Below, in pieces: positions 7,852 to 24,540 of a stretch of 54,989 nt of DNA. Source of the stretch: a virus; IMG/VR virus record IMGVR_UViG_3300012351_000011, positions 1-54,989 of that record. One strand, written 5' to 3'. The position numbers were made by a program, and so were the translations under genes. The stretch's first letter is position 1. Each line of letters opens with the position of its first letter. Under the pieces are notes generated by a model. The model saw only the letters and a program-made list of their open reading frames with translations. It made no database searches and had not been told where the DNA came from.

Positions 7852-7880
7852 ACTATACCATAGTCATTTTATCTTGTCAA
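7852..7880 (-). promoter_or_regulatory. Leftward early promoter
   Basis: On the (-) strand, TTGACA (7875-7880), a 17-base spacer and TATAGT (7852-7857) form a strong sigma-70 promoter for the operon starting at 7724. Confidence 0.75.
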
Positions 7881-7901
7881 TACTTTGCAATACTCTTGCA
7901 A
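7877..7901. promoter_or_regulatory. Shared 25-base control element (copy A)
   Basis: This stretch is identical to the reverse complement of 24516-24540. It is built from near-direct repeats of CAATACT-(C)TTTG type and overlaps both -35 boxes of the divergent promoters. It is a likely binding site for a phage regulator of both early loci. Confidence 0.7.
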
Positions 7902-7924
7902 ACTTATTGCTACAATGCTATACT
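7896..7924 (+). promoter_or_regulatory. Rightward early promoter
   Basis: TTGCAA (7896-7901), 17 bases, TATACT (7919-7924); it drives the replication operon that starts at 7955. The -35 box differs from TTGACA at two positions but is shared with promoters at 24516-24555 and 16708-16736. Confidence 0.75.
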
Positions 7925-7954
7925 AAGGTCACAATACGAAAGGAGGGAAGAAAC

Positions 7955-8242
7955 GTGAACGATCTACCGCCATTTCGCCGCTACGAAACCTTGCAGGGGG
8001 TTGAGTATGAAATGTTGAGCAGTTCAGGAAAGAGCTACTACACCGTGCCAATGGTCGGTTTAGTGGCCGCTGGTTGTGAATGCAGGTACAGCAAGTTCAA
8101 TCCAACCTGCAAACATCAGCAGGAAGCTGAGCGACAAGAGGCACTTTACCAGGGAGAACAGCAACCAGTAGAGCCTGCTAGCGGCATTGGCGAAAGAGGC
8201 TCTTTGAATTATGGGGATCGAGGATTTAGCTTGCTCAGGTAA
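7955..8242 (+). CDS. SWIM-type zinc protein (95 aa)
   Basis: A GTG start follows a very strong AAAGGAGGGAAG. The protein has a CxC-x8-CxH set (CECRYSKFNPTCKH), the signature of SWIM zinc fingers, which bind DNA or proteins. The rest is polar. It is the first gene of the rightward replication operon, so a role in replication or its regulation is plausible. A related C..C..CYH motif is found in the 17387-18061 protein. Confidence 0.6.
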   Translation: MNDLPPFRRYETLQGVEYEMLSSSGKSYYTVPMVGLVAAGCECRYSKFNPTCKHQQEAERQEALYQGEQQPVEPASGIGERGSLNYGDRGFSLLR

Positions 8243-8269
8243 CCCTTGCAAAGGGGAAAGGATAGAAAA

Positions 8270-9151
8270 ATGTTAATAGATGATCTTCTGTATATGTTAA
8301 AGCAGACAAAATACACCCTTCTTAGAGAAGGGGAGGCTACTTACGGACGTCTAATATCATCCGTCCGCTTTCAAATCGATAATGTTGCTAGGTATGCATA
8401 TGACTCCCTGCTTAGCATGGAAGATTCGGGAGAGAAAATCGGTGATATCAGGAGCCGCATACCTAATGTCGCACCACTTGCGCCCGCAATGTGGCTTGAG
8501 TTTGGGGGACTGGCAAAAGGAGCAGGGAAGCCAGCAACAAATCGATATGGATGCTTGATCTCAGTTGAATTAGACCAGAAGCATCATTTTGATATGCTTG
8601 GTATAAACGACATACCCGAAAATATACAGTGGATGTTTCGCACTCAATGTTTTGCTAAACTTTCTAATGAACTAAGTGTTATGAAATGGGCTCACTATAT
8701 AGGTGTTACTGATGAGGGTATCATTACATACCTTGCAAGAACATGGTCTAACGGGAGTGAGCAACCCACAATTAAAGCGGATTTGTACAATGAAACAATA
8801 GTTGCTCTCTTGGCAATTTGCTTTGCACACTGCAAGGGAACAGAGATTAAAGAACATCAACCATCTCGTCAAGTAAGCCGCGCATCAGAACGAGCAGGAA
8901 AGCCTGTTTTCACTTTCCACACTATTGATATTAATCCTTCTGCCAATGTTCTACGTGCTGAGGGCAACGTCTCCGAGAACGGACTAGCAAAAGCACTGCA
9001 TATCTGTCGAGGTCACTTTGCCCACTATACCACTGAAAAACCGCTCTTTGGAAAGTACACAGGCACTTTCTACCGTCCCATGCACGTGAGAGGCAATGCT
9101 GAGAAGGGAATTGCCGCCAAAGACTATCGCGTGCACCATCCCATTACATAG
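8270..9151 (+). CDS. Conserved phage protein with RGHF...LFGKYTG C-terminal motif (293 aa)
   Basis: A 293-residue soluble protein. Its C-terminal part (HICRGHFAHYT..., then LFGKYTGTFYRPMHVRGN) matches a motif I have seen at the end of many uncharacterised phage and plasmid proteins, but I cannot give a function. The start at 8270 follows AAAGGATAG; a near palindrome (CCCTTGCAAAGGGG) lies just upstream. Codon use and position are those of the replication operon. Confidence 0.6.
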   Translation: MLIDDLLYMLKQTKYTLLREGEATYGRLISSVRFQIDNVARYAYDSLLSMEDSGEKIGDIRSRIPNVAPLAPAMWLEFGGLAKGAGKPATNRYGCLISVELDQKHHFDMLGINDIPENIQWMFRTQCFAKLSNELSVMKWAHYIGVTDEGIITYLARTWSNGSEQPTIKADLYNETIVALLAICFAHCKGTEIKEHQPSRQVSRASERAGKPVFTFHTIDINPSANVLRAEGNVSENGLAKALHICRGHFAHYTTEKPLFGKYTGTFYRPMHVRGNAEKGIAAKDYRVHHPIT

Positions 9152-9199
9152 AAACCATTTCTCAACCAATCATCCATCTTTGAACACAACCAATATCCC

Positions 9200-9225
9200 A
9201 TGAAGCGGCATGTGAAGCGGCATGA
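9200..9225. repeat. Short tandem direct repeat
   Basis: TGAAGCGGCATG occurs twice in tandem in the 206-base gap between 9151 and 9358. Apart from this repeat I see only a weak possible promoter (TTGACG-N17-GACAAT near 9263) in the gap. Confidence 0.5.
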
Positions 9226-9357
9226 CGGCAAAGTGGTAATAGGGTGAAGAAACATCAACAAATTGACGCTTTTCTCCCTAGTCAAGACAATTCAAAAGTC
9301 AGTACACTTATGGATACCTCTTGAAAATGAACACCAAACAGTAAAGGATTACACGAT

Positions 9358-9816
9358 ATGTCCACTACCATACAAGACGATAAAACCATTGACACCCTCA
9401 CAATCACCCATGGGCCGCGCGCGTTTTACGCTGGGAGATGTGAATTGCCTCCAGGTATCAATGCCAGCTATCAACCCGGCAATGGTCGCAACCCAATTGT
9501 TGGCACAAAAGAACTTCACCAATTCAAAGATGACGCCGCTTTGTTGCTTTCCCAGGGGTATCATGACTGGGCTTTAATAAACGCTTTACGCGCGTCCAGG
9601 CGCAAAGTACCTCTACGCATGGAAATACATTTCTACTTCAAGTCACTTTGGCGATGTGACATTGACGGCGGCATTAAAGCCGTCATGGATGCTGTATTCA
9701 ACCGCTTAGGGCTAAATGACAACCTCGTGGTTGATCTGCACATAAGCAAAGAAGCCGATCCTGAAAACCCACGGGTTGAGGTCGAGGTGTATTGCTTTCT
9801 ATCGTCGTCTCATTAG
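9358..9816 (+). CDS. rusA: RusA-family Holliday junction resolvase
   Basis: The 152-residue protein carries the RusA core: the paired aspartates of WRCDIDGGIKAVMDAV (Asp101, Asp103) and a third acidic site in LNDNLVVDL (Asp121), with the terminal beta-rich RVEVEVYCF. RusA enzymes are dimers that cut four-way DNA junctions and are common in phage replication modules. The usual DxDN reads DIDG here, so one normally conserved Asn is replaced. AAAGGA lies upstream of the ATG. Confidence 0.85.
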   Translation: MSTTIQDDKTIDTLTITHGPRAFYAGRCELPPGINASYQPGNGRNPIVGTKELHQFKDDAALLLSQGYHDWALINALRASRRKVPLRMEIHFYFKSLWRCDIDGGIKAVMDAVFNRLGLNDNLVVDLHISKEADPENPRVEVEVYCFLSSSH

Positions 9817-9834
9817 CGCTTTGAGGATACTGTT

Positions 9835-10476
9835 ATGAGTTGTTATATCCAAAAATTAGAGCAAGTCAAGGATGGTTGGCATATCCGCTTTGGCGGGTCC
9901 AGCGACCACTTCTGGACAATGCTCTCCAATTTCAAGGCCGAGCAAAGACGCAGTAGCCAGGTGAATTGTTCTTATAATCCCAAGTTCTGTAATGGTCGTG
10001 GTGGATGGTTTTGCACTGACCATATCCTTGTTAAATATGGATTTGACTTTGAGAATTATATTGATATGCGTCAAAAAGCCGAGACGGCCTATACAGAAAA
10101 CGGCAAAGCTGAACAAGCCAAACATGAGAAAGAGGCCGAGGAAAAGCGCAAACGAGAGTGGCAAGAAGCGGCGGATCGGATGCGTGCGTGGGAGAAGCGC
10201 ACAGGAGAATGGGAACAAAGACAGCGTGAAGACCGCTCGTATTCATATCGACAGCCAACGCGGTCACCAGGGACGGCGCTGACATTGACTGAAGCAAAGG
10301 TTGAGTTGGGTTTGTCGTCATTGGCGCAACTCACCGAGAAAGAGGTCAAGAAAGCGTTCAGGCTTAAAGCCATGACTGTCCATCCTGACCATGGCGGTAC
10401 ACACGAGGGTATGGTGAGACTGAATCAGGCATACCAATTGGTGATGTTCCATGCGGTGAAAGTTGGTGTGAGATGA
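9835..10476 (+). CDS. J-domain (DnaJ-like) protein
   Basis: The 213-residue protein ends in a J domain (about 150-205) with the diagnostic His-Pro-Asp at 183-185 (TVHPDHGG). The middle (85-135) is a long, highly charged helix, and the N-terminus is a separate small domain with cysteines. J domains recruit Hsp70 (DnaK). It overlaps the helicase/primase gene by ATGA, so it may help load or dismantle replication complexes, as lambda replication depends on host DnaJ/DnaK. This last point is inference. Confidence 0.8.
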   Translation: MSCYIQKLEQVKDGWHIRFGGSSDHFWTMLSNFKAEQRRSSQVNCSYNPKFCNGRGGWFCTDHILVKYGFDFENYIDMRQKAETAYTENGKAEQAKHEKEAEEKRKREWQEAADRMRAWEKRTGEWEQRQREDRSYSYRQPTRSPGTALTLTEAKVELGLSSLAQLTEKEVKKAFRLKAMTVHPDHGGTHEGMVRLNQAYQLVMFHAVKVGVR

Positions 10477-12224
10477 CCACTTTCACCGAAGAAAAGACAT
10501 CCTCCACCAAAGAACAGCAGAATGGACACAATACGGCTTTTCAGCAAGACGCCAATGCTCGTGCGTATATACTGGCGCTAAAAGCTCATGAGAAGCCTGT
10601 TAGTACGCCAGATGTTGGCAAGTGGGCGCAGTGTATCGGACATCTTGTGAACGTCTACAATGAGGCTCCTGACACCATAGAATACGTCATTGTCGCCTTT
10701 ATTGGATCGGGGAAATACCCAGGGCTCAAAGAACTGCTTGCGAATGACCCCTTGCAGGGGAATATTCCGATAGAGGATGAAGACTACAGCGTGCCTCCAC
10801 TGCCTGATGATATCAAAGCCAATGAGGCGCGCGCTTCAGAGGCGAGTCCTACGCTGGATGCCATGATAAAGCTTCTGCAGTACTGGTGTACCAGGTCCTA
10901 CGATGGCTATCATGAGGCGGTAGCTTTGTTTGTGCTGGATGTGATAGCCGCTAGACGGCCTTTTCTTCCCTGGCGTAGTGGCATATGGACAAGCTTGTAT
11001 TTGATGCTTGTTGCCGATAGCACGACGCACGCTAAGACAGAAGCCGCAAGTTATGGCCGTAGGATTATTGAGGATTGCGGTCTTGGCTATTTGCTTTCCC
11101 CGGATGAAATAACACCGCAAAAGCTCATGAATAACATGACCGGGGAGAATGTTCCCAGAAACTACAACACAAAGGACCCTGACGGCAAAGAATATATTCG
11201 TCTAAAGCTTGCTTTTGCTGGCCAACGTGGCTGGTTATACGATGAGTTTGGAAACAAATTGCAGGAGATCATCACGGCCAAAGGCCATAATGCATACTTC
11301 TATGCGCTCTTGAAACAGTTGTATGACAACAAACAGACTTATGAATATGACACACTCACCAGGGACAATGAGCATATCAACATGCCGTATCTGTCCATTA
11401 TCGGAACGGCTACACCGGCCTGTCTGAAACCAATAGCATCCAAACAAAGCGCCGTGTGGACTGATGGTATGTTTGCCAGGATTGCGTTTATTGTGCCTCC
11501 CAAAGATGAATTAAAGCTCCAGTCAGCACCGCAAGAGCAATTCTTTGTGCCAAATGAGATACGAGACAAATTGGTCAAATGGCATCAAGAACTTGGCTTC
11601 CCCGATTGCGAGATTGTTGATACAGCAGAGCAAGAAGAGTTGATGGCAGAGGCGCATGGTGAAGATAAGAAAAAGAAAAAAGCGAACAGACAACCCTACG
11701 AGGTCAACCGTGGGGACTTGCCACAGCAGATCGTGACATGGACGCAGGATGTCTATAAGGCGCATGAAAGCTACTACGAGGCTCTTGCTACCCTGGCAAG
11801 GGATAGCGGGCTAGACGAACGCTTTAGAGCCACCTATGGCCGTTTACCAGATATGGCACTCAAGATAGCTATGTTGCTCTCCAGCCTGGAAAATAATGGA
11901 GACATTGACATGCGCCACTGGGCTAGAGGTCAGCAAATTACCGAGCACTGGCGCGCGAACTTTCATGAGTTGATTGCGCAGCTCTCGAATGATGAAGCGC
12001 GCGGCTTTGGTGAGATCCAGGACAAAATTCTTGAGGTCATCACCCAGAAACTGAAGGGCAAGAAAGCCAACTCATACACCATATCCCAACACGGTAGCAC
12101 GCTTCTCCGCAAGATCGGCTCTATCAAAGTGCGTGAAGTTCTGGATGAACTGGTCGCAGCGGGGAAACTGGAAATGGCTGGAAAAGGTAAAAGCGCACTC
12201 TATGGAATTCCTGGCAAGGGGTAA
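10473..12224 (+). CDS. DUF3987/YfjI-type replicative helicase-like ATPase with C-terminal winged helix
   Basis: The 583-residue protein contains the DUF3987-type core: a P-loop-like LMLVADSTTHAKT, then YDEFGNKLQE, YLSIIGTATPACL and DGMFARIAFI. The P-loop is degenerate compared with GxxGxGKT. The C-terminal 70 residues (KANSYTISQ...IGSIKVREVLDELV...GKGKSALYGI) form a winged helix that is clearly related to the stand-alone protein at 26344-26706. It probably acts in phage DNA replication with the primase at 14575. A palindrome variant (CCCCTTGCAGGGG) is at 10748. Confidence 0.65.
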   Translation: MTTFTEEKTSSTKEQQNGHNTAFQQDANARAYILALKAHEKPVSTPDVGKWAQCIGHLVNVYNEAPDTIEYVIVAFIGSGKYPGLKELLANDPLQGNIPIEDEDYSVPPLPDDIKANEARASEASPTLDAMIKLLQYWCTRSYDGYHEAVALFVLDVIAARRPFLPWRSGIWTSLYLMLVADSTTHAKTEAASYGRRIIEDCGLGYLLSPDEITPQKLMNNMTGENVPRNYNTKDPDGKEYIRLKLAFAGQRGWLYDEFGNKLQEIITAKGHNAYFYALLKQLYDNKQTYEYDTLTRDNEHINMPYLSIIGTATPACLKPIASKQSAVWTDGMFARIAFIVPPKDELKLQSAPQEQFFVPNEIRDKLVKWHQELGFPDCEIVDTAEQEELMAEAHGEDKKKKKANRQPYEVNRGDLPQQIVTWTQDVYKAHESYYEALATLARDSGLDERFRATYGRLPDMALKIAMLLSSLENNGDIDMRHWARGQQITEHWRANFHELIAQLSNDEARGFGEIQDKILEVITQKLKGKKANSYTISQHGSTLLRKIGSIKVREVLDELVAAGKLEMAGKGKSALYGIPGKG

Positions 12225-12256
12225 CACTGACTATGAGCTATAAGGAGTTTTAAATT

Positions 12257-13024
12257 ATGATTGTTTGGAGTTACGGCGGTGGAACACAAAGTATCGCTAT
12301 TGCTCTGCTTGTTGCTCAAGGCAAACTACCAAGGCCTGATCTCATTGTGTTTGCCGACACAGGCAGAGAAGCCACCGAAACTTTTGAGTGCACAGATCGA
12401 TATGTGGCTCCGCTCTTGGCCTCGGTAGATTTAACGATAGAGACGGCTGGCCATGAGTTGGCAAAGGTCGATATGTACGGCGGAAAAGACAAGGATACCT
12501 TACTTATCCCTGCATTCCATGAAACAGGAAAGCTATCTACCTTTTGCTCTAGTGAATGGAAAATGTACGTCATACGTCGGTTTATCCGCGCCAAAGGCAT
12601 CAAGCAGTGTATCAATTGGCTAGGTATCAGTACCGACGAGGTTGAGCGGTTGAAACCGTCAAATAAGCAGTGGATAGAAACACACTGGCCTCTATGCGGT
12701 ATGCCTGTCAGCGCAAATTATGGCATCCAAATGAACCGCGCTGATTGCCGCCAACTCATTCTCAATCAAGGATGGACTGAGCCACCTAAGTCTTCGTGTT
12801 GGATGTGTCCAAACAGGCGCAATCCACAATGGCAGCATCTCAAGATGCACTATCCCCAAGACTTTGCAAAAGCCGTCGCTCTCGACAAAGGCATCCGGGC
12901 AAGAGACACGCAAGGCGGCGTGTGGTTACATGAGTCGGGAAAACCGCTAGATGAAATTGATTTCTCAAAAGATGACAGCCAACCTGAATTGTTTGGTTGT
13001 GATAGCGGTCACTGCTTTGTGTGA
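12257..13024 (+). CDS. PAPS-reductase/PP-loop family protein
   Basis: The 255-residue protein starts with a PP-loop nucleotide site (SYGGGTQS, 5-12) and carries VFADTGREATETFE as in phosphoadenosine phosphosulphate reductase-like enzymes. The C-terminal half has a CWMCPNRR cysteine pair. Phage members are usually annotated as PAPS reductase, yet the true substrate is unknown. Sulphur transfer to DNA or RNA is possible by relation to DndC. AAGGAG precedes the ATG. Confidence 0.75.
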   Translation: MIVWSYGGGTQSIAIALLVAQGKLPRPDLIVFADTGREATETFECTDRYVAPLLASVDLTIETAGHELAKVDMYGGKDKDTLLIPAFHETGKLSTFCSSEWKMYVIRRFIRAKGIKQCINWLGISTDEVERLKPSNKQWIETHWPLCGMPVSANYGIQMNRADCRQLILNQGWTEPPKSSCWMCPNRRNPQWQHLKMHYPQDFAKAVALDKGIRARDTQGGVWLHESGKPLDEIDFSKDDSQPELFGCDSGHCFV

Positions 13025-13040
13025 CATTTACCATGCAAGG

Positions 13041-13215
13041 GTTTTGCATAGTAAGCAAAACAGAACCAGTAAAACACATAGAATTATGTCAACAATGCAA
13101 AATAAGCAACTATGCAATTATGCAAACATATAAAAGTATTAGGTATCTATTTGCATAGATATTACAGAAGAGAAAAACAGGAAAGTACCTTTTGCATAGT
13201 TGCATATTTGCAGAG
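13041..13215. other. Cluster of TTTGCATA-type repeats, possible origin or operator region
   Basis: The A/T-rich gap after the PAPS-like gene holds TTTGCATA or its complement at about 13042, 13119, 13150 and 13192, plus further TTGCAT/ATGCAA words. It also has a perfect hairpin, GTTTTGC (13041-13047) with GCAAAAC (13055-13061). Iteron-like repeats in both directions next to replication genes suggest a replication origin or a multi-site operator. Confidence 0.4.
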
Positions 13216-13225
13216 AAACACAGTA

Positions 13226-13239
13226 CCCCTTGCAAGGGG
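13226..13239. repeat. Dispersed palindrome, copy 7
   Basis: CCCCTTGCAAGGGG between the repeat cluster and the 13261 gene; the flanks extend the symmetry to 16 bases (A...T). Confidence 0.95.
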
Positions 13240-13260
13240 TAGAGAGAGGGAGATTGAACC

Positions 13261-13539
13261 ATGAATGAACTAGATGAGCATGGTCTTCATTTTGTGATGA
13301 GGCAGATTGACTACCATCATCAGGAAGCGAATCCATCTATGCCATCCGAGGAATATCTTGCGAAACATCGGACGGCACGCGATAGGCTGATCGAACAACT
13401 CAAAGCCCAGGGGAAGCGGGTTATCCTCGTCAAAGCCGATCATTTTGAAGAGTGCGGGCGGTACGTCTGCGAAGGTGACGATGGTGTCAACGGCTATGAC
13501 CCCTTGCCAGGAACAGTAACACTCGAAGAGGAAGCATAG
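13261..13539 (+). CDS. Hypothetical protein (92 aa)
   Basis: A small acidic protein (MNELDEHGLHFVMRQIDYHH...) preceded by GAGAGAGGGAGA. It has a short conserved-looking centre (KAQGKRVILVKADHFEECGRYV). No domain recognised. It opens a run of three short genes before the primase. Confidence 0.55.
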   Translation: MNELDEHGLHFVMRQIDYHHQEANPSMPSEEYLAKHRTARDRLIEQLKAQGKRVILVKADHFEECGRYVCEGDDGVNGYDPLPGTVTLEEEA

Positions 13540-13555
13540 ATAGGAGAAATAAACC

Positions 13556-13777
13556 ATGCAACAATCCATTGGAAAGTTATCACCTAGCGCGGCGCGGCTC
13601 TTACTGGCTTTCTTAACTCGAAAACCTGAAGACACATTTGATGAGATCATGTTGGTTTCAGGTATTGAGAGATATCAGGTTTTTATGAAAGCCAAACAAG
13701 AACTGGTAACGCTAGGCATCCTGACAGTGCAGGGTGATCAGCTTTTTCTAGCGCAAAATGAGCTTTGCAAGGGGTAG
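13556..13777 (+). CDS. Small winged-helix-like protein (73 aa)
   Basis: The pattern LSPSAARLLLAFLTRKPEDTFDEIMLVSGIERYQVFMKAKQ...LVTLGILTVQ fits a helix-turn-helix plus wing, as in MarR- or replication-associated winged helices. The protein ends at a half copy of the palindrome (TTTGCAAGGGG). Likely a DNA-binding regulator, unproven. Confidence 0.5.
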   Translation: MQQSIGKLSPSAARLLLAFLTRKPEDTFDEIMLVSGIERYQVFMKAKQELVTLGILTVQGDQLFLAQNELCKG

Positions 13778-13793
13778 AATAATCTTTGAAGAG

Positions 13794-13822
13794 TTGTGCA
13801 AAGTATTGAAAAGTGGTATAAT
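13794..13822 (+). promoter_or_regulatory. Early-type promoter
   Basis: TTGTGC (13794-13799), 17 bases, TATAAT (13817-13822). The bases around the -35 box are a diverged copy of the 25-base control element found at 7877 and 24516. Confidence 0.65.
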
Positions 13823-13842
13823 TGAGGCACTAAAAATGTTGA

Positions 13843-13872
13843 GCTAGAGCGGTGTTGGTCGCACCCTCTAGC
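13843..13872 (+). other. Leader hairpin before the HNH gene
   Basis: GCTAGAG-C-GGTG pairs with CACC-CTCTAGC around a 7-base loop, with one bulged base. It sits between promoter and ribosome site and could regulate translation. A hairpin of like design lies at 18497-18533. Confidence 0.45.
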
Positions 13873-13900
13873 GTGATGACAAGAAGGATTGGTTCTTATC

Positions 13901-14578
13901 ATGGATGATACTATACTCTCAAGTACCTCAAATAACAACCCCTTGAAACGTTGCTCGGCATGTGAAAAAGAGCTTCCAGCCACAACAGAGTTTTTTGGCA
14001 GTTCAAAAAAAGGCAAATATGGTTTACGCAGTTGGTGTAAAGCCTGTTGCCGCAAGAAAAGAAAAGCTTACCTCAGTTGCCCAGAAGTTCAAAAGCATAA
14101 CCATGATGTAAGGAAAACTTATCTTCAAAGACCTGATGCAAAAGAACGCGCTCGACTTGCAGAGCAAAAACGTCGTCAACGTCCAGAGGTAAGAGCCTAC
14201 CAGCAAAGTTATGAAAAAACAAAACGAACGCATTCTGGATACAGAGAAAAAGAACGAATACGATCCCGAACACGCTACTATCAACCCAATGGTAAAGAAA
14301 AAGCACTTGCGAAAAACCATACTCGCCGCGCTCGTAAGCTGAATAATGGAGGAACGCACACAGCACAAGATGTTCAGACTCAATATGAGCGGCAACGTGG
14401 TAAATGCTACTATTGCAAAACAAAGGTTGGTAAGAAATACCATGTCGATCACATCATACCCCTTGCAAGGGGAGGTTCTAACGGACCTGAGAATATTGTG
14501 ATAGCCTGCTCTACATGCAATCTTTCTAAGTGCGATAGACTTCCTCGCGAATGGCCTCAATGTGGGAGATTATTATGA
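13901..14578 (+). CDS. HNH endonuclease with N-terminal zinc ribbon
   Basis: The 225-residue protein has a CSAC...CKAC ribbon (18-49), a long basic linker of KxR repeats, and a C-terminal HNH domain (CYYC, HVDHIIPLARGG, NIVIACSTCN). It may be a homing-type or packaging-associated nuclease. It has its own promoter and hairpin leader, and stands inside the replication operon, as mobile HNH genes often do. The palindrome at 14459 codes for the PLARGG part of the HNH motif with no change in length. Confidence 0.8.
   Translation: MDDTILSSTSNNNPLKRCSACEKELPATTEFFGSSKKGKYGLRSWCKACCRKKRKAYLSCPEVQKHNHDVRKTYLQRPDAKERARLAEQKRRQRPEVRAYQQSYEKTKRTHSGYREKERIRSRTRYYQPNGKEKALAKNHTRRARKLNNGGTHTAQDVQTQYERQRGKCYYCKTKVGKKYHVDHIIPLARGGSNGPENIVIACSTCNLSKCDRLPREWPQCGRLL
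14459..14472. repeat. Dispersed palindrome, copy 8
   Basis: CCCCTTGCAAGGGG in the HNH gene, read as PLARGG inside the catalytic motif. Confidence 0.95.
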
Positions 14579-16020: not shown

Positions 16021-16089
16021 GGAGATGGTAACATTGCAAGACATTTGTAAGCTTTTGCAAACATCATTTCAGCAAGGAAGGAGATATCT

Positions 16090-16383
16090 ATGCCAGTTAT
16101 TATTGAAGAAAATGGTCAGAAGGAGGAATTTTTAACCATCGGAGAAGCCTGCGAGTACTTGAAGATCACTAGTCAGACGCTGAGAGTACGCGCCAAAGCG
16201 CTTGGTATTAAGCAATATCGCCAGGACATTGCGCCAAATTTGCGCTACTACAAGAAAAAGGACCTGGATGAGATGAAACGGATGCGCCAGGTGGAAGATG
16301 ATGACGATGTAGAAGAGAACGACAATAACGACGGCCACAAACCACCGTCAAAGACAAAAGCCAAAGCAAAGAAAACACAATAA
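16090..16383 (+). CDS. MerR/excisionase-type helix-turn-helix protein (97 aa)
   Basis: Residues 13-60 (FLTIGEACEYLKITSQTLRV...LRYYKKKDLDEM) are a MerR/HTH_17-type DNA-binding unit as in excisionases. The tail is first acidic (DDDDVEENDND) and then Lys-rich. AAGGAAGGAG precedes the ATG. It has its own operator-containing promoter and is followed by a terminator, so it is a monocistronic regulator candidate. Confidence 0.7.
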   Translation: MPVIIEENGQKEEFLTIGEACEYLKITSQTLRVRAKALGIKQYRQDIAPNLRYYKKKDLDEMKRMRQVEDDDDVEENDNNDGHKPPSKTKAKAKKTQ

Positions 16384-16707: not shown

Positions 16708-16736
16708 ATTATACTGAATTCTTCAATACATTGCAA
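16708..16736 (-). promoter_or_regulatory. Early-type promoter, (-) strand
   Basis: On (-): TTGCAA (16731-16736), 17 bases, TATAAT (16708-16713). It has the same -35 box as the divergent early promoters and reads into 16645-16445. Confidence 0.6.
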
Positions 16737-16838
16737 GACTTCTCTATGCAAAGTTACACTTACAATTGGTTAGTTGCCGAAAGCACAGAAGTATACAGAT
16801 AATAAGTCCATATAAATAAAACAGGTTGAAAAATAATA

Positions 16839-16872
16839 AAACGCTGACTACTCGGTTCATAGCCAGCATTTT
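16839..16872. terminator. Terminator after the 16903 gene
   Basis: A stem of AAAcGCTGaCTA with its partner (two mismatches) and T-runs on both sides lies just past the stop of the (-) gene. The remainder of 16646-16902 holds only this and the promoter. Confidence 0.45.
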
Positions 16873-16902
16873 TACTGATGAGATTAAGATCGTATTAAGG
16901 TT

Positions 16903-17295: not shown

Positions 17296-17338
17296 TGTGA
17301 TATCCTTTCTTTGTGCTAACTTATTTGGTTGCACACGT

Positions 17339-17379
17339 ATCGGGAAGCAAGAGCAATTGGACGGCGCATGCTTCCCGAT
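17339..17379 (-). other. Inverted repeat between two (-) genes
   Basis: ATCGGGAAGC (17339-17348) and GCTTCCCGAT (17370-17379) make a perfect 10-bp stem with a 21-base loop. It may be an internal terminator or a processing site between two (-) genes. Confidence 0.45.
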
Positions 17380-17386
17380 GGTTTAT

Positions 17387-18061: not shown

Positions 18062-18107
18062 GGTATTTATCTCCTTTGAAATAACTTGTTTTTGTTTACA
18101 CATATAT

Positions 18108-18127
18108 ATTAACACGAATGTGTTAAT
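18108..18127. promoter_or_regulatory. Palindromic operator candidate of the Xre regulator
   Basis: ATTAACAC-N4-GTGTTAAT, a perfect inverted repeat in the divergent region. Further TTTACACA words (about 18094, 18139) and a GAGTTTT/AAAACTC pair (near 18150-18174) surround it. Confidence 0.55.
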
Positions 18128-18192
18128 ATGTCAATAGGTTTACACACGAGTTTTAACATCAACGTAAAAACTCATATATGTTGACGTTTTCA

Positions 18193-18221
18193 TTGACATG
18201 CTAGCATTAAAATGCTATTAT
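18193..18221 (+). promoter_or_regulatory. Promoter of the Xre regulator gene
   Basis: TTGACA (18193-18198), 17 bases, TATTAT (18216-18221), 35 bases before the ATG at 18256. Confidence 0.7.
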
Positions 18222-18255
18222 GTTAGTGTAGAAATTATTTTTGAGAGGAGCGCAA

Positions 18256-18492
18256 ATGGCAAAATTAAAAATTAAGGAAATTGCAGAGGCCAAGGGTATC
18301 AAGCAATCTCACTTACAAATAACAGCGGCGGTAACTCCCCCATTGCTCAATCGCTATTGGAACAACAAGACAGGCACTGTTGACCTGTCCGAATTAGAAA
18401 AGATAGCAACGGCATTAGGGGTAAAGCCTGGAGAGTTAATTATTCCTGATGCTGAATACACAGAAGCAGGAGATCTAGAAAACGCGGCGTAG
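18256..18492 (+). CDS. Xre/Cro-type regulator (78 aa)
   Basis: A single helix-turn-helix domain: KIKEIAEAKGIKQSHLQ, then LSELEKIATALGVKPGELI. It is a paralogue of the 31374-31577 protein (similar start and same end). GAGAGGAG precedes the ATG at 18256; the TTG at 18241 is too early. Repressor or Cro-like role in the lysis-lysogeny choice is likely but not shown. Confidence 0.8.
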   Translation: MAKLKIKEIAEAKGIKQSHLQITAAVTPPLLNRYWNNKTGTVDLSELEKIATALGVKPGELIIPDAEYTEAGDLENAA

Positions 18493-18496
18493 CCTG

Positions 18497-18533
18497 GGCT
18501 AGCGGCGTGAATTGGAACCTCTCACCGCTAGCC
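18497..18533 (+). other. Hairpin between the Xre and nuclease genes
   Basis: GGCTAGCG pairs with CGCTAGCC (8 bp) and GTGA with TCAC inside it. It resembles the leader hairpin at 13843 in sequence and layout and may control the downstream nuclease gene. Confidence 0.4.
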
Positions 18534-18565
18534 GCAGACCCATTGTAATTATAGCATAGGAGAAT

Positions 18566-19054
18566 ATGGAAACCATGACTGATATTATTGATTTTTTTGC
18601 TAGCGCTCAGGCTGTTGATGCAAATACAGGCGAAATAAACCAAGAACTTACCAGTAGCTTCAATCGCATGTTTCAACGCGTTAAAGATTTTAATGAACAG
18701 CATCCAGCATCACCTGCCAAGAACTGTAGACCTCCCAAAAATGAAAAATCGCTAGAAGCTACTTTTGGAGAATATCTCAAAAAACAAGGTATTTCCGTTT
18801 CTCATCAAGTGATTTGTGATGCTGGTATTGCGGATATTGTAACGCCAGACGCAATTTATGAAATCAAGGATACGCTTGATCGAGAAGCCATTTTCAGCGC
18901 CATAGGCCAAGTTAGTATCTATCGCCAACAAATTAACCCTACGGCAAAAGCATTTGTTGTTGGTCGACCCTTTCCGATGGCAGAAAAAGCAAAAGACGCT
19001 ATCACAACTGCTGCTGCTGCATTAGGCGTAGAAATCATATTCTGGGAACAATAA
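18566..19054 (+). CDS. PD-(D/E)XK nuclease-fold protein (162 aa)
   Basis: The C-terminal half has the core of this fold: ADIVTPDAIYEIKDTLDREAI, with the Asp, Glu and Lys in order, then SAIGQVSIYRQQ and FVVGRPF. This is like restriction-enzyme-type and DUF-type nucleases. The N-terminus is polar. AGGAG is 3 bases before ATG 18566 and 12 before ATG 18575, so the second start is also possible. It may be a defence, exclusion or DNA-processing nuclease linked to the Xre gene upstream. Confidence 0.65.
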   Translation: METMTDIIDFFASAQAVDANTGEINQELTSSFNRMFQRVKDFNEQHPASPAKNCRPPKNEKSLEATFGEYLKKQGISVSHQVICDAGIADIVTPDAIYEIKDTLDREAIFSAIGQVSIYRQQINPTAKAFVVGRPFPMAEKAKDAITTAAAALGVEIIFWEQ

Positions 19055-19107
19055 AATAAAATACACAACAAACCGTCCCCCTGCTCGGCAACAACTCATT
19101 GAGTGAG

Positions 19108-19119
19108 CCTTGCAAGGGG
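19108..19119. repeat. Dispersed palindrome, copy 12
   Basis: CCTTGCAAGGGG between convergent genes; followed by CTTTTGTCTTT it may help terminate transcription. Confidence 0.85.
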
Positions 19120-19128
19120 CTTTTGTCT

Positions 19129-19848
19129 TTACTTAAACTCTTGTACCTCAATAGTCCAGGGTATACCAGCAAACACTTTGAGGTAGACATCCCCTCCCTG
19201 ATGCTCCTCGCTGCTATCGCTGGTAACTTTGTTGGCTGCGCAATTGCCGCTCACATCTCCCGCATAGGATGACGTTCCATCGCTATTATGAACATTGATC
19301 CCGATAAACCCTTCCACGCCGTAATTATTTCTTGCATCACATGTCCAGTTGATGCGCCAATTATCTGGCACACTGAAAATAGGCGTCTGTTTATCGCCAG
19401 TGCCAGTGAACTTGTGCGTGGTTACCCATTTTGCCGGTGCCTGGGTAGGTGCAGGCGTGCTTGTTGGTATGGATGTATTGAGTGTGGCAGTAGGTACTGA
19501 CACAGTGCCTCCTGCATTGTTCGTAGCTGCTATCTGGGCGCTATTGGTCGCAGAGGTGGTGTCTGTCGTCTGTGTTGTTGTACTGGTAGACTTGTTTCCA
19601 TTGGCGGCATAAGATATCAGTCCACAAAGTAAGAAAATGCCACACAGAAGCGTGATAAGCCACACCGGCATACAGCCATATTTGCGTTTCCAAATAGATG
19701 GTTGTTGAGGCGGCGGAGGTGGCATCTGCTGATAGGGTGAATATTGCGTGTACTGTGGTGGCAACTGGCCTGATTGTTGTGGATATTGTGTGTGTTGAGG
19801 TGGTAGCTGCCACTCTGGTTGATCGTTTGGCGGTTGAGGATAGGACAT
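19129..19848 (-). CDS. Membrane-anchored surface protein of Ktedonobacteria type
   Basis: The 239-residue protein starts with 50 Pro/Gln/Tyr-rich residues, then a helix (MPVWLITLLCGIFLLCGLI), a Thr/Ser/Pro linker and an outer beta domain (TGTGDKQTPIF...WRINWTCDA...GGDVYLKV...WTIEVQEF). I know this layout from many Ktedonobacteria surface lipoprotein-like proteins, so it may be acquired from the host. Displayed during lysogeny, it could alter the cell surface or block other phages; this is inference. RBS is weak (AGAGAAAAG). Confidence 0.65.
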   Translation of the reverse strand: MSYPQPPNDQPEWQLPPQHTQYPQQSGQLPPQYTQYSPYQQMPPPPPQQPSIWKRKYGCMPVWLITLLCGIFLLCGLISYAANGNKSTSTTTQTTDTTSATNSAQIAATNNAGGTVSVPTATLNTSIPTSTPAPTQAPAKWVTTHKFTGTGDKQTPIFSVPDNWRINWTCDARNNYGVEGFIGINVHNSDGTSSYAGDVSGNCAANKVTSDSSEEHQGGDVYLKVFAGIPWTIEVQEFK

Positions 19849-19954
19849 GGACTTTTCTCTCTTTCTTCTAGCAACATAGAAATAATGATGTACTTTAATA
19901 TACAACGCTTTACATTCACTATGCTACTTTTGATGAGAAAGACGCCTTATTGCT

Positions 19955-20044
19955 CTATTCATCGCGCCAATTGCGCAGTAGCCAGATCGCCAGTGCAAGA
20001 AACGCCAGAACCACTAGTATTGATGCAGGAAGCCACAAGTCCAT
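19955..20044 (-). CDS. Tiny membrane peptide (29 aa)
   Basis: The frame encodes MDLWLPAS, a hydrophobic helix of about 16 residues and a charged end RNWRDE. GGGGA stands upstream. It lies between a possible (-) promoter (TATACT near 20086) and the surface-protein gene. One membrane helix with a charged C-terminus is typical of small phage membrane peptides and type I toxins. Function unknown. Confidence 0.45.
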   Translation of the reverse strand: MDLWLPASILVVLAFLALAIWLLRNWRDE

Positions 20045-20161
20045 AGTAGATAGTTCCCCTTACTTCTCAAACAAATATGTCACTCAGTATAGCACTTCCC
20101 TTGCAAGAGTTTGACACACTGTTCAAAACATAGCGTAGGCTTTACAGGATGAGCAAGAGGT

Positions 20162-20219
20162 GCCACAATGACTAACAGACAGTAGATGGAGTGATCTACT
20201 GTCTGTTAGTCATTGTGGC
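20162..20219. repeat. Perfect 26-bp inverted repeat, 6-base loop
   Basis: Arms 20162-20187 and 20194-20219 are exact complements (start GCCACAATGACT). It lies 7 bases past the stop of the (-) gene at 20227. There is no U-run. It could be a strong RNA hairpin for 3'-end protection, RNase III processing or protein binding. Confidence 0.9.
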
Positions 20220-20226
20220 GCGATAT

Positions 20227-20460
20227 TTAGCTATTGGCGTTGTTCTTTAGCACAACCAGGCCAGGATGATTGAGAATGTCCATCATTTCTGTGTTTGTGG
20301 CTTCGACGAGCGTAAGAATGTTGCCGTGTCTGCTGTCTACTAACTCGACACGCCACCATGTACCATTGTGAAATACAAAGCTACCCTCTAATGCAGAGGT
20401 GCTTAGTTGCCCTTGTTTGAGTGCAGACTTCTCAATCCGTTTGTCGATATTATCTTCCAT
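20227..20460 (-). CDS. Hypothetical protein (77 aa)
   Basis: A small protein (MEDNIDKRIEKSALKQGQ...) with a beta-rich centre (GSFVFHNGTWWRVELVDS). GGGAGATG precedes the ATG. It is the last gene of the (-) accessory operon and is followed by the perfect hairpin. Not recognised. Confidence 0.55.
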   Translation of the reverse strand: MEDNIDKRIEKSALKQGQLSTSALEGSFVFHNGTWWRVELVDSRHGNILTLVEATNTEMMDILNHPGLVVLKNNANS

Positions 20461-20488
20461 TTGACATCTCCCTTTCTTATTTGCTCTA

Positions 20489-20581
20489 TTATATTCCACA
20501 GAGCCACATGATAGCCTGGGTGACTGCCAGCGAAAGCAACATTAAAAAGATGATGATGAGCAGGTGCAGTTTCCAGGTCAT
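20489..20581 (-). CDS. Tiny membrane peptide (30 aa)
   Basis: The frame begins MTWKLH, continues as one hydrophobic helix of about 20 residues and ends MWLCGI. Its ATG overlaps the stop of the upstream gene by ATGA, so it is translationally coupled. It is the second of three such peptides in this operon. Confidence 0.5.
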   Translation of the reverse strand: MTWKLHLLIIIFLMLLSLAVTQAIMWLCGI

Positions 20582-20958
20582 AGGGTTCCCTGCTCATAGT
20601 CCTCTATGACCTGGCGGCCTACTGGCGACTCTCGCATGAAATTCAAGATGTCATCATAGGTGTGTGTATCGCCTTCACTTTCGCACATCCTGCCGGCGTA
20701 AAAGAGCTTTTCGTACAGCGTGCGGATCTCTTCTTTCATCTGCTGCTCTGTGTTCGTATAGGTATTTGTGATGCGCTGCACCTCTTTATTTTCCTTGACA
20801 ATATAGCTTCTCATAGCGCCAATATGGCCACTCCATCCCTGCTCATCATAGAACTGATAAACCTTGGTTCGCGCAACACTTGCGCTCGGTGCCATAACCG
20901 CGAAAATCAACACGTCATTAATGGTATCGTCTTCAGCTAGGACAATGTATTGTCGCAT
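20578..20958 (-). CDS. Hypothetical protein (126 aa)
   Basis: An alpha/beta N-terminus (MRQYIVLAEDDTINDVLIFAVMAPSASVARTKVYQFYDEQG) is followed by a helical charged part. AAGGAGG precedes the ATG at 20958. The start resembles small phage proteins that I cannot name. It is flanked by tiny membrane peptides on both sides. Confidence 0.6.
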   Translation of the reverse strand: MRQYIVLAEDDTINDVLIFAVMAPSASVARTKVYQFYDEQGWSGHIGAMRSYIVKENKEVQRITNTYTNTEQQMKEEIRTLYEKLFYAGRMCESEGDTHTYDDILNFMRESPVGRQVIEDYEQGTL

Positions 20959-20972
20959 CACTATTCCTCCTT

Positions 20973-21071
20973 TTACCATACCCCTATGATCTTGTAGATA
21001 GCCATCAGCAGTAGGAAGCTCACCAGAATGGCAGTTGCGAGCTGCCATCGCTCATCACAACATCGTTTCAT
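20973..21071 (-). CDS. Tiny membrane peptide (32 aa)
   Basis: MKRCCDERWQ is followed by a hydrophobic helix of about 20 residues ending IIGVW. Its ATG overlaps the upstream stop by ATGA. With the peptides at 20489 and 19955 it makes a series in one region. Confidence 0.5.
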   Translation of the reverse strand: MKRCCDERWQLATAILVSFLLLMAIYKIIGVW

Positions 21072-21403
21072 CGGTTCAACTCCAAACGCAAGGCACTAAT
21101 ACGCTCAATATCTTCCTTTGGCAGTTTGGCACATGTTAAGCAGTAGTATTCACCGTTAATTGTCGTTTGGTTCAGATGATCGTCGCAGATGTTTCGGCCA
21201 CAACAAGGGCATTCAAACACATCATTGGACATCGTGTCGCAGTCACAGACGAGCTGACCAATAACCTCCCCTGCTTTGTTGAATATTGACTCCATGTACT
21301 GACAGCACAAAGGAGCATCTTCCGCAGGTGCTTCCATGACAACAACGGTATAGGTTTTCTTTGGCGGTTTCTCGATCTCGTAAAAGGCTTTTCTTTCACT
21401 CAT
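21068..21403 (-). CDS. Zinc-binding protein (111 aa)
   Basis: The protein contains CDC, CPCCGRNICDDH and CLTC, a cross-braced, RING/treble-clef-like set of Cys and His residues (about 70-105). ATG 21403 overlaps the upstream stop by ATGA and has GGAGG 12 bases before it. Likely an adaptor or nucleic-acid-binding protein. Confidence 0.6.
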   Translation of the reverse strand: MSERKAFYEIEKPPKKTYTVVVMEAPAEDAPLCCQYMESIFNKAGEVIGQLVCDCDTMSNDVFECPCCGRNICDDHLNQTTINGEYYCLTCAKLPKEDIERISALRLELNR

Positions 21404-21621
21404 TTTGTTGGCCATCCTCCCTCGTAGCGCGTATTGCCTGTTGTCTCGTTGAAGATACGCACATAGGCCACACGCCGCTTTGATGTTTCTGCTATTTCTT
21501 GCTTGTATATTTCAATGCCTATCCGTCCCTCAATGTGCTCTTTGTGCGTGATGTAGTTCCCAACAGCGTCTAGCATCCGCACAGTAAACAGATGCTTCCC
21601 CCCAAATGTTCTCTTAGCCAT
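21400..21621 (-). CDS. Hypothetical protein (73 aa)
   Basis: A small basic beta-rich protein (MAKRTFGGKHLFTVRMLDAVGNYITHKEH...). GAGAGGA precedes ATG 21621, which overlaps the end of the upstream SANT-like gene by 8 bases. Not recognised. Confidence 0.55.
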   Translation of the reverse strand: MAKRTFGGKHLFTVRMLDAVGNYITHKEHIEGRIGIEIYKQEIAETSKRRVAYVRIFNETTGNTRYEGGWPTK

Positions 21622-22264
21622 ATTTTTCCTCTCGTAGTGAGCCCAACCCACCCGATAATAATTCAACCATCCATAACCAGTCGCAACGACGTGGGTCAAT
21701 TTCTAATGGATGATTGACAACAAGATCTCTGATCGCTGAGTCAGTAAAGAGCCACATGTCGCCGCCTTGCTGTTCTGTGCGTTCACTTTGGCGGCGCTTG
21801 CCTTTGATCCAACCGCGATCTAACCACCGCTCAACTTTGTGATGATCGCAGCCCAGACCCAAACACAAACCACGCATGGTATAGCCCTCTTGGGTCTTGT
21901 TCACACCTATCCTCTTGGCTTTTAAGTGAACAGCGGTTTTTGTCCTGCCGAGGTGCTTGGCGATATCCCCCAGGCTCTTTCTGTGCAAATTGCGCTCAAG
22001 ATATGCTTCATCCTCTTCTGTCCAACGCGGTTCTTTTTGCCTGGCCAGGCCCAACTCACGGCCCCACTTCCTGATCACGTGCCGAGGATAACCCGGGAAA
22101 TAGTGCATCAGTTCGTCAATGGTTTCTGTGCGACCGTCGTAGCGTTCGAGCAAGATACGACGTTGCGAGTCAGAGAGGAAGTATTTCTGCTGAATGCCGC
22201 CACGGTGAATGCCTACGCGTTTTGCGCCAACCTGCTCTAAAGTCATGAGTGGTTGTACCATCAT
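21614..22264 (-). CDS. SANT/Myb-like and helix-turn-helix DNA-binding protein (216 aa)
   Basis: The central part reads RWTEEDEAYLERNLHRKSLGDIAKHLGRTKTAVHLKAKRIGV, a SANT/Myb-like helix triplet common in phage regulators. The preceding block (LLERYDGRTETIDELMHYFPGYPRHVIRKWGRELG) is a second helix-turn-helix, and a third putative one follows (MRGLCLGLGCDHHKVERWLDRGWI). Three DNA-binding units suggest a transcription or replication regulator. Its start overlaps the upstream stop by ATGA. Confidence 0.75.
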   Translation of the reverse strand: MMVQPLMTLEQVGAKRVGIHRGGIQQKYFLSDSQRRILLERYDGRTETIDELMHYFPGYPRHVIRKWGRELGLARQKEPRWTEEDEAYLERNLHRKSLGDIAKHLGRTKTAVHLKAKRIGVNKTQEGYTMRGLCLGLGCDHHKVERWLDRGWIKGKRRQSERTEQQGGDMWLFTDSAIRDLVVNHPLEIDPRRCDWLWMVELLSGGLGSLREEKYG

Positions 22265-22548
22265 GCGGTTACCTCCACTTTCGTTTCAAAATGCAGTCCA
22301 AACACGGTGACACCGCCTGGACAGAACGACAAAACCGCCAAGCCGTCAACAAGCATATTCATGGCGCGCGTAGTTGTGTCTTTTTCTCGATAGAGAATGG
22401 CATCCCCATGTGAGCCGAGATACTCAGAATATTCCGTGCGGATACGCGCAAAGTCCAGGTCAGAAGGTCCGTCTTGTTGCTGATATTCCCAAATGCGCAG
22501 TGGCACGCATAATTCCAGATGCATACGCAATAATTCATCATTGCTCAT
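22261..22548 (-). CDS. Hypothetical protein (95 aa)
   Basis: The protein MSNDELLRMHLELCVPLRIWEYQQ... has AAGGAG upstream and overlaps both neighbours by ATGA, so helicase, this protein and the SANT protein are made from one coupled message. No domain recognised. Confidence 0.6.
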   Translation of the reverse strand: MSNDELLRMHLELCVPLRIWEYQQQDGPSDLDFARIRTEYSEYLGSHGDAILYREKDTTTRAMNMLVDGLAVLSFCPGGVTVFGLHFETKVEVTA

Positions 22549-24224
22549 ACTGCCGCGCTCCTTGCTTCTTTGGCTTTGCGCCACTTCTCAAAAGACTGAT
22601 AGGCAACATCTAGCATGTCAGCAGCTTCACCTTTTGTTACCGTCTCTGGGTTGTATTGGAAGTTGAACCGGCGCTGGTACTTTGCCAGTTTTTCGAGTTG
22701 AGTTTCTGTCGCTGAGTCCTGTCTCCATGCTGCATTTCTGTCGATAAGTTTGACTGACTTCGCATCTGACAAGAGCATGCGTGCTTTACGTTCCGCCTGG
22801 CCCTGAGCCCAGTCAAGCGGCATGTATTCATTGCTCCACCATTGCATCTCGAAACGTGGCGCTAGTCGAGCGGCAACACGATAATAGCCGTCAATTTCAG
22901 ATGAGGGGATAAGCGCAATACGATGCTTTTCTTGTCCAACTTCCAGCACGAATTTACCGTCTGAACGGGACTGCCAATTGAGACGCGCTAGCACATTGAT
23001 GGTGATATCCTGATCTCGCTTCACATCGATCTTGCGTTCGCGCTTTTCACGTACTGCAACCTCTTTGCGCTCTTTCGCTTCAAGCAAGGTTTCACCGTCT
23101 TGCAGGTCAACACCTGTTACCCTTGCAAGGGATTGAGGCTCTAGCCTGTGATTGAGTACGTTGTCAGTGGCATCAAGAATAAGCGCATCTGTTTTTGTGG
23201 GAGCAAGGCGCAATATTCTGCCAATACATTGCGCATAGAGACTACGGGACTTGGTAGGACGCGCCATAATAGCGCATGAGAGGAAGATATACCGGCCTTC
23301 ATCCTCATCATAAGATGTTTCAGCGTCGTACCCTTCTGTGAAGACCTGGCAGTTACACAACACGCGATATTTGCCCGTCTCAAAATCTTTGAGGATTGCT
23401 GATCGATTTGGCGTTTTACCAGACACAGCAACCGCTTTTACACCTGCCTCATTAAATGCATCTGCCAGATGGTCAGCATGATTGATATCCACTGTGAAGG
23501 CCATAGCTTGACGATCTGAAGCGTGTTCCAGATACCCTTCAACAATCTTTCGATTGCGTTCAGGCGTATCAATCTTCTCTGCCAGTTCTTTAACCTGGTA
23601 ATCGCCTTCTTTGGTATGCAGGCCGTCAAGAGATGTCCCTGTTTTGATAGCTACGGCTTTGACATTGGTGAGATACCCCTGCTCTACGCCGTCTAGGATT
23701 GATACAGTGTGTACTGACTCACCAAACAGGTCATCATTGGTTATCCTGTCCATACGGTCATCAGTGGCCGTACAGCCAAGCTTAAAAGCATCTTCTAGCT
23801 GAGCTAGAACTTTGCCGTATTCGTTGCCAGAATGCGCGTGGTGAACTTCATCCACAATAACCAGGCCAAAGCCAAAGTGCTTTAAGTTTTTCAAGTGGTT
23901 AGGCCGCGCAATGGTCTGAATACTGGCTACTGTGATTGGATGACCCCAATCCTGATAGCCACCTCCAACTTTGCCGATTTGCGCATCAGGATCGATGTAA
24001 CGATACTTTTGCGCAGCCTGGGTCAGCAACTCGTCACGATGTGCGATTATCAGGACATTTGTATTTGTGCGCTTCCTGATCTCAACCGCAATGGCACTGA
24101 AGCAAACAGTTTTACCCAGTCCTGTCGCATGAACAAATTTCGCTTTCCCCTTAGGGTTATCTTTATGTATACTCAGGACGCGATCCCTCGTCGCAACCTG
24201 ATAATCTCTCAACTCTACCTGCAT
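22545..24224 (-). CDS. SF2 helicase (RadD/UvsW-like)
   Basis: The 559-residue protein has the Q-like start LRDYQVATRD, Walker A ATGLGKT (33-39), DEVH (125-128), TATDDR (152-157) and motif VI QCIGRILR (332-339). The C-terminal 200 residues have a charged segment and an extra helical domain. Such enzymes unwind branched DNA in repair, recombination-dependent replication or restart. A palindrome copy at 23120 is read as SLAR. Confidence 0.85.
   Translation of the reverse strand: MQVELRDYQVATRDRVLSIHKDNPKGKAKFVHATGLGKTVCFSAIAVEIRKRTNTNVLIIAHRDELLTQAAQKYRYIDPDAQIGKVGGGYQDWGHPITVASIQTIARPNHLKNLKHFGFGLVIVDEVHHAHSGNEYGKVLAQLEDAFKLGCTATDDRMDRITNDDLFGESVHTVSILDGVEQGYLTNVKAVAIKTGTSLDGLHTKEGDYQVKELAEKIDTPERNRKIVEGYLEHASDRQAMAFTVDINHADHLADAFNEAGVKAVAVSGKTPNRSAILKDFETGKYRVLCNCQVFTEGYDAETSYDEDEGRYIFLSCAIMARPTKSRSLYAQCIGRILRLAPTKTDALILDATDNVLNHRLEPQSLARVTGVDLQDGETLLEAKERKEVAVREKRERKIDVKRDQDITINVLARLNWQSRSDGKFVLEVGQEKHRIALIPSSEIDGYYRVAARLAPRFEMQWWSNEYMPLDWAQGQAERKARMLLSDAKSVKLIDRNAAWRQDSATETQLEKLAKYQRRFNFQYNPETVTKGEAADMLDVAYQSFEKWRKAKEARSAAV
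23120..23131. repeat. Dispersed palindrome, copy 13
   Basis: CCCTTGCAAGGG in the helicase gene, read on (-) as SLARV. Confidence 0.9.
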
Positions 24225-24248
24225 AACAAAAGCTCTCTTCCCTGAAAA

Positions 24249-24455
24249 CTACTGCACCTCGACCATTTTTGTACTTTCATCTATATGCCGGTCAAACGAC
24301 GATTGCTTGACACGGTATGGTCCGGTATCGCCATTGGTCCGAAACGCCTCTATTTTGCCTTTCCTGATTTTCCGCAGGACCGTGATCGGCTTTATCTTGA
24401 GGAAAGCGGCGACCTCTTTCACCGTGTAAATTCTCTCCTGCTCTGCTGTAACCAT
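24249..24455 (-). CDS. Excisionase/MerR-type helix-turn-helix protein (68 aa)
   Basis: YTVKEVAAFLKIKPITVLRKIRKGKIEAFRTNG... is the HTH_17/excisionase fold. It is the first gene of the helicase operon, reading away from the control element at 24516. It may be the excisionase partner of the integrase, or the regulator of the divergent promoters. AAAGGG stands before ATG 24455. Confidence 0.75.
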   Translation of the reverse strand: MVTAEQERIYTVKEVAAFLKIKPITVLRKIRKGKIEAFRTNGDTGPYRVKQSSFDRHIDESTKMVEVQ

Positions 24456-24492
24456 GTGAATTCCCTTTCTTTGTTCCAACTGCTCTTGTGTT

Positions 24493-24521
24493 AGTATAGC
24501 ATTGTCTTGCTATGATTGCAA
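24493..24521 (-). promoter_or_regulatory. Leftward early promoter
   Basis: On (-): TTGCAA (24516-24521), 17 bases, TATACT (24493-24498); it drives the 24455-20489 operon. Confidence 0.75.
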
Positions 24522-24540
24522 GAGTATTGCAAAGTATTGA
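24516..24540. promoter_or_regulatory. Shared 25-base control element (copy B)
   Basis: Exact reverse complement of 7877-7901. It covers both -35 boxes of divergent promoters here too. Confidence 0.75.

Follow-up and report, generated by a model that had tools for sequence, protein, structure and literature searches.

The repeat element and its divergent promoters

The window, which is the whole stretch of DNA that was analyzed, corresponds to the 54,989 bp virus record IMGVR_UViG_3300012351_000011. It encodes an integrase, primases, a helicase, a terminase, a major head protein, and tape-measure proteins, and judging from this gene content it is a temperate tailed phage. Its presumed host taxonomy, Chloroflexota, comes from its relatives only. 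At two distant loci, hereafter sites A and B, the window carries a 25-bp element (TCAATACTTTGCAATACTCTTGCAA), and the reverse-complement relationship originally noted for the two copies is exact: 7877-7901 (plus strand, site A) is identical to the reverse complement of 24516-24540 (site B). With up to 3 mismatches allowed, the window has just these two matches, and none appeared at the same tolerance when it was dinucleotide-shuffled 100 times. Neither exact nor near-exact copies were found in the viral contigs and genome contigs searched.

Both copies lie between divergent promoters, which are predicted here from matches to a sigma-70-like consensus (TTGnnn-17-TATAnT). At site A, the leftward promoter (7852..7880, minus strand; TTGACA at 7880-7875, a 17-bp spacer, and TATAGT at 7857-7852) would drive an operon containing genes 6936-7733 and 6170-7030 (minus strand), while the rightward promoter (7896..7924, plus strand; TTGCAA at 7896-7901, a 17-bp spacer, and TATACT at 7919-7924) would drive the primase genes in an operon extending from 7955 to about 15.9 kb (plus strand). 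At site B, the predicted leftward promoter (24493..24521, minus strand; TTGCAA at 24521-24516, a 17-bp spacer, and TATACT at 24498-24493) precedes a minus-strand operon containing an HTH_17 gene and the helicase gene, and the rightward promoter (24527..24555, plus strand; TTGCAA at 24527-24532, a 17-bp spacer, and TATACT at 24550-24555) precedes a plus-strand operon beginning at 24586. The claim that the element overlies the -35 boxes of two diverging promoters at both loci likewise holds, as three of these boxes are covered entirely and the box of the leftward site A promoter is covered in 4 of its 6 bases.

Several other features were encountered within the rightward site A operon. Its first gene (7955-8242) encodes CxC...CxH residues like those of a SWIM zinc finger, and a Pfam search of its product returned no hit. 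The protein is kept in the related phage G008 (60% identity), and the same residues can be recognized by eye in the first gene to the right of site 1 of the G288 prophage (both described below). Further along this replication operon, a gene of the phosphoadenosine phosphosulfate reductase family (12257-13024; PHROG 424, 2.7e-34) is followed by a non-coding stretch (13034-13213) with roughly eleven TGCA/AGCAA words (ATGCAA, TTTGCATA). These words are iteron-like and possibly mark a replication origin.

The 25-mer forms the central part of an extended array of direct repeats, in which a unit of about 10 bp (GCAATACTNT) recurs every 10-11 bp. The near-tandem CAATACT words previously noticed in the element are indeed present, but they are two units of this longer phased array. 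Read in the direction of the element, the site A array is TCAATACTTT / GCAATACTCTT / GCAAACTTATT, with its units 10-11 bp apart; it spans 7877..7907 (plus strand; units TCAATACTTT at 7877, GCAATACTCT at 7887, and GCAAACTTAT at 7898) and contains the entire element. Site B exhibits an array of this kind on the opposite strand (24510..24540, minus strand; units TCAATACTTT, GCAATACTCT, and GCAATCATAG), again containing the element. The unit model for the window was built from both sites, which score 36.4 (A) and 36.5 (B) as its training sites. The likeness between A and B reaches beyond the element to 54 nt at 85% (7873-7926 and 24491-24544) and pairs the rightward site A promoter with the leftward site B promoter, -10 box included. 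Given that both the -35 and -10 boxes fall within these 54 nt, A and B might be viewed as duplicated or gene-converted strong promoters, with the common sequence reflecting a promoter consensus and having no operator role. However, the longest stretch of identity covers the -35 boxes and the DNA between them, not the spacer or the -10 region.

Further arrays in the window and among related phages

Under the same unit model, random 200-bp stretches score a median of 1.8, with 95th and 99th percentiles of 10.8 and 14.0. The diverged copy noted at 13784-13807 is supported. This array, site C (13780..13809, minus strand; TCAATACTTT GCACAACTCT TCAAAGATTA), matches over 36 nt at 81% and ranks third in the window. 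Its 3-unit score is 22.9 (the maxima of 60 shuffles average 16.4, with an sd of 2.4, and go up to 24.6), and its four-unit score of 23.4 lies above all 60 shuffles (largest 19.3). A search for promoters at site C found only one, on the plus strand beneath the array (13794-13822, TTGTGC-17-TATAAT). In contrast, the partial copy proposed at 26199 (site D) does not rise above background, as its array score of 7.2 is below the random 95th percentile, although a TTGCAA-17-TATACT promoter does exist there. Two weak candidates are both situated near a second HTH_17 gene, which begins at 16090. One lies before this gene (16036..16066, plus strand; GCAAGACATT GTAAGCTTTT GCAAACATCA) and scores 15.1, i.e. 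about the random 99th percentile and under the whole-window shuffle maximum. The other is a tentative array-like stretch (16713..16742, plus strand; score 13.9) over a leftward TTGCAA-17-TATAAT promoter (16736). Sites A and B together would reach four transcription units and site C would add one more, whereas no array is present at site D or at the promoters around 18.2 kb and 31.7 kb. Control of all early operons by one regulator, as proposed, thus goes beyond what these arrays indicate, while the interpretation with the best support is that the divergent early operons of A and B have a regulator in common.

A primase search identified the phage G008 (IMGVR_UViG_3300026320_000006; 55,572 bp), whose primase is 55% identical and which is collinear with the window over much of the early region. 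Its divergent promoters at 41506 (minus)/41522 (plus), beside the ortholog of 7955, and at 1763 (minus)/1789 (plus), beside the HTH_17 and helicase orthologs, are the counterparts of the site A and site B pairs, respectively. Both G008 copies carry CTTGTCAATACTTTTGA and TTGACAACTTTTCATGACAATGCTATACT, which are unlike the sequences of the window, and they match each other almost fully, save that in one of them the halves are set further apart by 10 bp, or one helical turn. Site A of the window and that of G008 are alike at 75%. A search of genome contigs pointed to a Chloroflexota center, and 400 Chloroflexota genomes were searched, yielding prophage-like relatives with primases 31-38% identical. 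In the G288 prophage, scanning for divergent promoters gave two pairs and no others, one at the primase operon (site 1, 20753/20789) and one at the HTH_17/helicase operon (site 2, 28369/28405), which are alike over 95 nt at 78%. The AACT units at both sites occur in a single 10-bp phase and a single orientation, with no AGTT. A model derived from one site recovers the other plus a third array, located in the interval that separates the integrase stop from a second HTH_17-like gene; unit models with a spacing of 8, 9, 11, or 12 fail. In G343, arrays of the unit TAACWATGNT occupy two places on contig 45, near 1.2-1.7 kb. A model built from these two loci gives its top score by a wide margin, 37.3 (null mean 12.5, max 23.8), to the DNA immediately preceding the primase operon of contig 35, followed by both edges of site B (24.8 and 22.4; null max 17.8). 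As the G343 arrays are split between two contigs, a single prophage is assumed.

In the suggested search for the motif in related phages, the layout recurs in G008, G288, and G343, whereas the exact 25-mer is absent and each phage has its own unit. In all four phages, the unit sequence is private to the phage and common to the loci within it. The relatives also have arrays before the second HTH_17 gene, where the version in the window is weak. Such a two-place layout with a phage-specific unit in three other phages is difficult to account for unless some factor binds in trans. The recurrence of two-locus sharing in three further phages, whose sequences differ, together with an array in G288 that lies away from the A and B positions, also renders promoter duplication or gene conversion highly improbable.

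Among the more distant records, the terminase-related G002-G007, which are mostly structural-gene relatives, lack the element at up to 3 mismatches, and no common repeat was found when comparing the operon starts of G337a. In further genomes of the class, the relatives of the helicase are not directly preceded by an HTH_17 gene and seem to be chromosomal. G133 was rejected as an example of the same system, since its dispersed repeat is different. This repeat, CAACTTAAGAATAAGAACTTAAGA, is present in at least a dozen copies, including a tandem block of 60-bp period, in a region that resembles a prophage and contains a primase relative (L067 and its neighbors, concatenated 11555-40354).

The strongest self-match lag is 10 in all four genomes (combined z of 5.2, 5.7, 5.8, and 4.3), part of the sites in this test having been picked with the phasing in view. 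An unselected test employed fixed 80-bp windows, with promoter pairs picked by position only. The sites then yielded z values of 2.7, 2.5, 4.5, 3.5, 1.5, 3.5, and 0.3 (average 2.6), versus a mean of 0.21 (sd 0.94) for 72 other promoters of these genomes. The lowest values came from G343 site B (z 0.3) and G288 site 1 (z 1.5), and the spread relative to the controls indicates that 10-bp phasing is general, but uneven in strength between sites. AT-rich, helically phased units could in principle serve a host regulator or nucleoid protein, as phased repeats can be coated by host proteins, or they could simply reflect the intrinsic curvature of phased AT-rich tracts, in which case a phage protein would be unnecessary. 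We consider this quite improbable, because the unit differs among related phages and yet is common within each, the 72 other promoters are without 10-bp phasing, and curvature requires no common unit.

Candidate binding proteins and a model for early control

The products of 16090, 18256, 24249, and 31374 had been proposed as candidate binders, and the sequence evidence favors 24249, followed by 16090, over the other two. The first gene to the left of site B (24249..24479, minus strand) encodes a 72-76 aa HTH_17 protein (BldC/Xis-like wHTH; HTH_17 8.4e-10), and in 4 of 4 phages site B is separated from the helicase gene by an HTH_17-type gene. The HTH_17 proteins of G288 and G343 are, however, just 26-29% identical to that of the window. 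The second HTH_17 protein (16090..16383, plus strand; 97 aa) matches HTH_17 at the gathering score (27.0 bits). When a profile of the four HTH_17 proteins was compared with the PDB, it matched BldC (6ama) at 5.7e-6 and Pukovnik Xis weakly. Similarly, the AlphaFold2 model of the 24249-24479 product (pLDDT 83) best matches the fold of BldC-DNA complexes, then that of mycobacteriophage Pukovnik Xis, with lower matches to RacA, a P2 DNA-binding protein (4lhf, which we take to be P2 Cox), and RdfS. The 24249-24479 product would therefore appear to be the best candidate binder, with the 16090 product as an alternative or additional one.

The remaining two candidates are Cro/CI-like HTH_26 genes (18241-18492, originally listed as 18256, and 31374-31577), with relatives in G008, G288, and G133. 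In phage lambda, the operator for CI and Cro is found between back-to-back early promoters and over their -35 boxes, as are sites A and B, and a lysogenic repressor is required by a temperate phage. Furthermore, a 17-bp dyad (TTGCAA-N5-TTGCAA) is visible inside the element at sites A and B, and one of the G343 arrays adjoins an ORF that by eye resembles a Cro/CI-type regulator. Accordingly, one could envision a lambda-type immunity operator, with one of the HTH_26 proteins bound to the dyad as a dimer. Nevertheless, we regard this as unlikely. The dyad is damaged at site C, where the direct-repeat unit persists, and no such palindrome was seen in G288, whose units face one way. The stretches upstream of the two HTH_26 genes are without an array (scores of 4.9 and 1.5, within the random range given above), and the 18.1-kb region carries a different palindrome, TTAACACGAATGTGTTAA. 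The lambda sites are also palindromic and bound by dimeric HTH proteins, whereas those of the window are direct repeats at two loci. Mycobacteriophage stoperators, which are many dispersed asymmetric repressor sites, are likewise unlike the window, with its mere two copies at up to 3 mismatches.

Instead, the arrays probably constitute a multi-unit phased operator over two divergent promoter pairs, likely bound by the small HTH_17 protein acting as an autoregulated Apl/Cox-like repressor, a reading in which we place moderate confidence. The direct repeats of about 10 bp, one turn apart, would form an operator across the -35 boxes of both divergent pairs. The 24249-24479 protein, with or instead of the 16090 product, would bind the units cooperatively and head-to-tail with one monomer on each, in the manner of BldC, Apl, Cox, and Xis, and the resulting protein coat would shut RNA polymerase out of both promoters together. 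Early expression would be on and then damped, providing Cro/Apl-like control over four operons. We infer both the binding of the arrays by an HTH_17 protein and repression as its outcome; since the promoter of the HTH_17 gene itself lies inside site B, the protein presumably represses its own synthesis as well.

Several parallels exist with Apl of coliphage 186, which, like P2 Cox, is a recombination directionality factor as well as a repressor of early promoters. Apl binds cooperatively to direct repeats that are spaced 10-11 bp apart and overlap the early promoters, and both promoters of the pair are repressed (PMC7498355). Like Apl and P2 Cox, the 24249-24479 product is a small wHTH phage protein of the HTH_17/excisionase type, and like the Apl sites, the arrays of the window and its relatives consist of direct repeats 10-11 bp apart that overlap early promoters (here consensus-predicted). 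However, Apl also binds att, whereas the window is without an array at its inferred attP. In addition, the candidate binder gene is within the helicase operon, unlike apl and cox, and the promoters of 186 and P2 face each other to form one switch, while those of the window are back-to-back at two places. BldC of Streptomyces binds head-to-tail on direct repeats of variable number (PMC5859096), with about one turn per protomer in the longer site (PMC5859096; PMC11963761), and is the top profile and fold match (HTH_17, MerR-like wHTH). In contrast, BldC is a chromosomal developmental regulator with the consensus AATTnnnnC, whereas the window units read GCAATACTNT. Pukovnik Xis and RdfS share the HTH_17-type fold, and RdfS of ICEMlSymR7A binds to the promoter of its own gene and represses it (PMC11963761), but both proteins are defined by prophage or ICE excision, a role for which the window protein presents no evidence.

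A more speculative extension, which we consider conceivable but doubtful, is that the master early switch in a Chloroflexota temperate phage family is a filament protein of the BldC/Xis type in place of a CI/Cro dimer, acting on two or more divergent promoter regions through helically phased arrays, with the private unit setting immunity specificity. If true, the Apl/Cox control mode, i.e. a filament on phased repeats over early promoters, would reach a poorly studied phylum and would widen from one switch to several operons. As the units vary among relatives while the layout is constant, these phages would provide a ready series for following co-change between a wHTH filament protein and its low-specificity sites.

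The likely attachment region and other repeats

Upstream of the integrase gene, the stretch 27517-27570 resembles by eye a tRNA 3'-fragment and is likely attP. Similar tRNA-fragment-like stretches are found upstream of int in G008 (L014, about 5060-5110) and G288 (L060, about 18740-18800), while ARAGORN called no tRNA in the window. The best array score in the inferred attP/integrase region (26777-27627) is 8.9, which is below the random 95th percentile, and due to this lack of an array the 24249 protein is not classified as an excisionase. An att role for the third array of G288 was dropped as well, given that attP looks to be a tRNA fragment lying on the opposite side of int and the integrase region of the window scores low.

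Two other repeats were apparent in the window. One is a perfect inverted repeat (20162-20219; 26 nt, loop of 6 nt) with no T-run after it. The other is the palindrome CCCTTGCAAGGG, present in 18 exact copies between 1929 and 47767 (0.003 expected from base composition), which lie within and between genes, some right after stop codons. G008 has no exact copy, and similar CCCTTGCAGGGG sequences are present there. Of the 19 genomic copies in G288, 17 are inside a 44-kb prophage region; the 13 copies in G337 are all confined to two prophage-like stretches, one of which, 19 kb long, contains 10. The reversed control gave 0-1 in these genomes. This clustering demonstrates that CCCTTGCAAGGG is phage-borne in G288 and G337, rather than host-wide.
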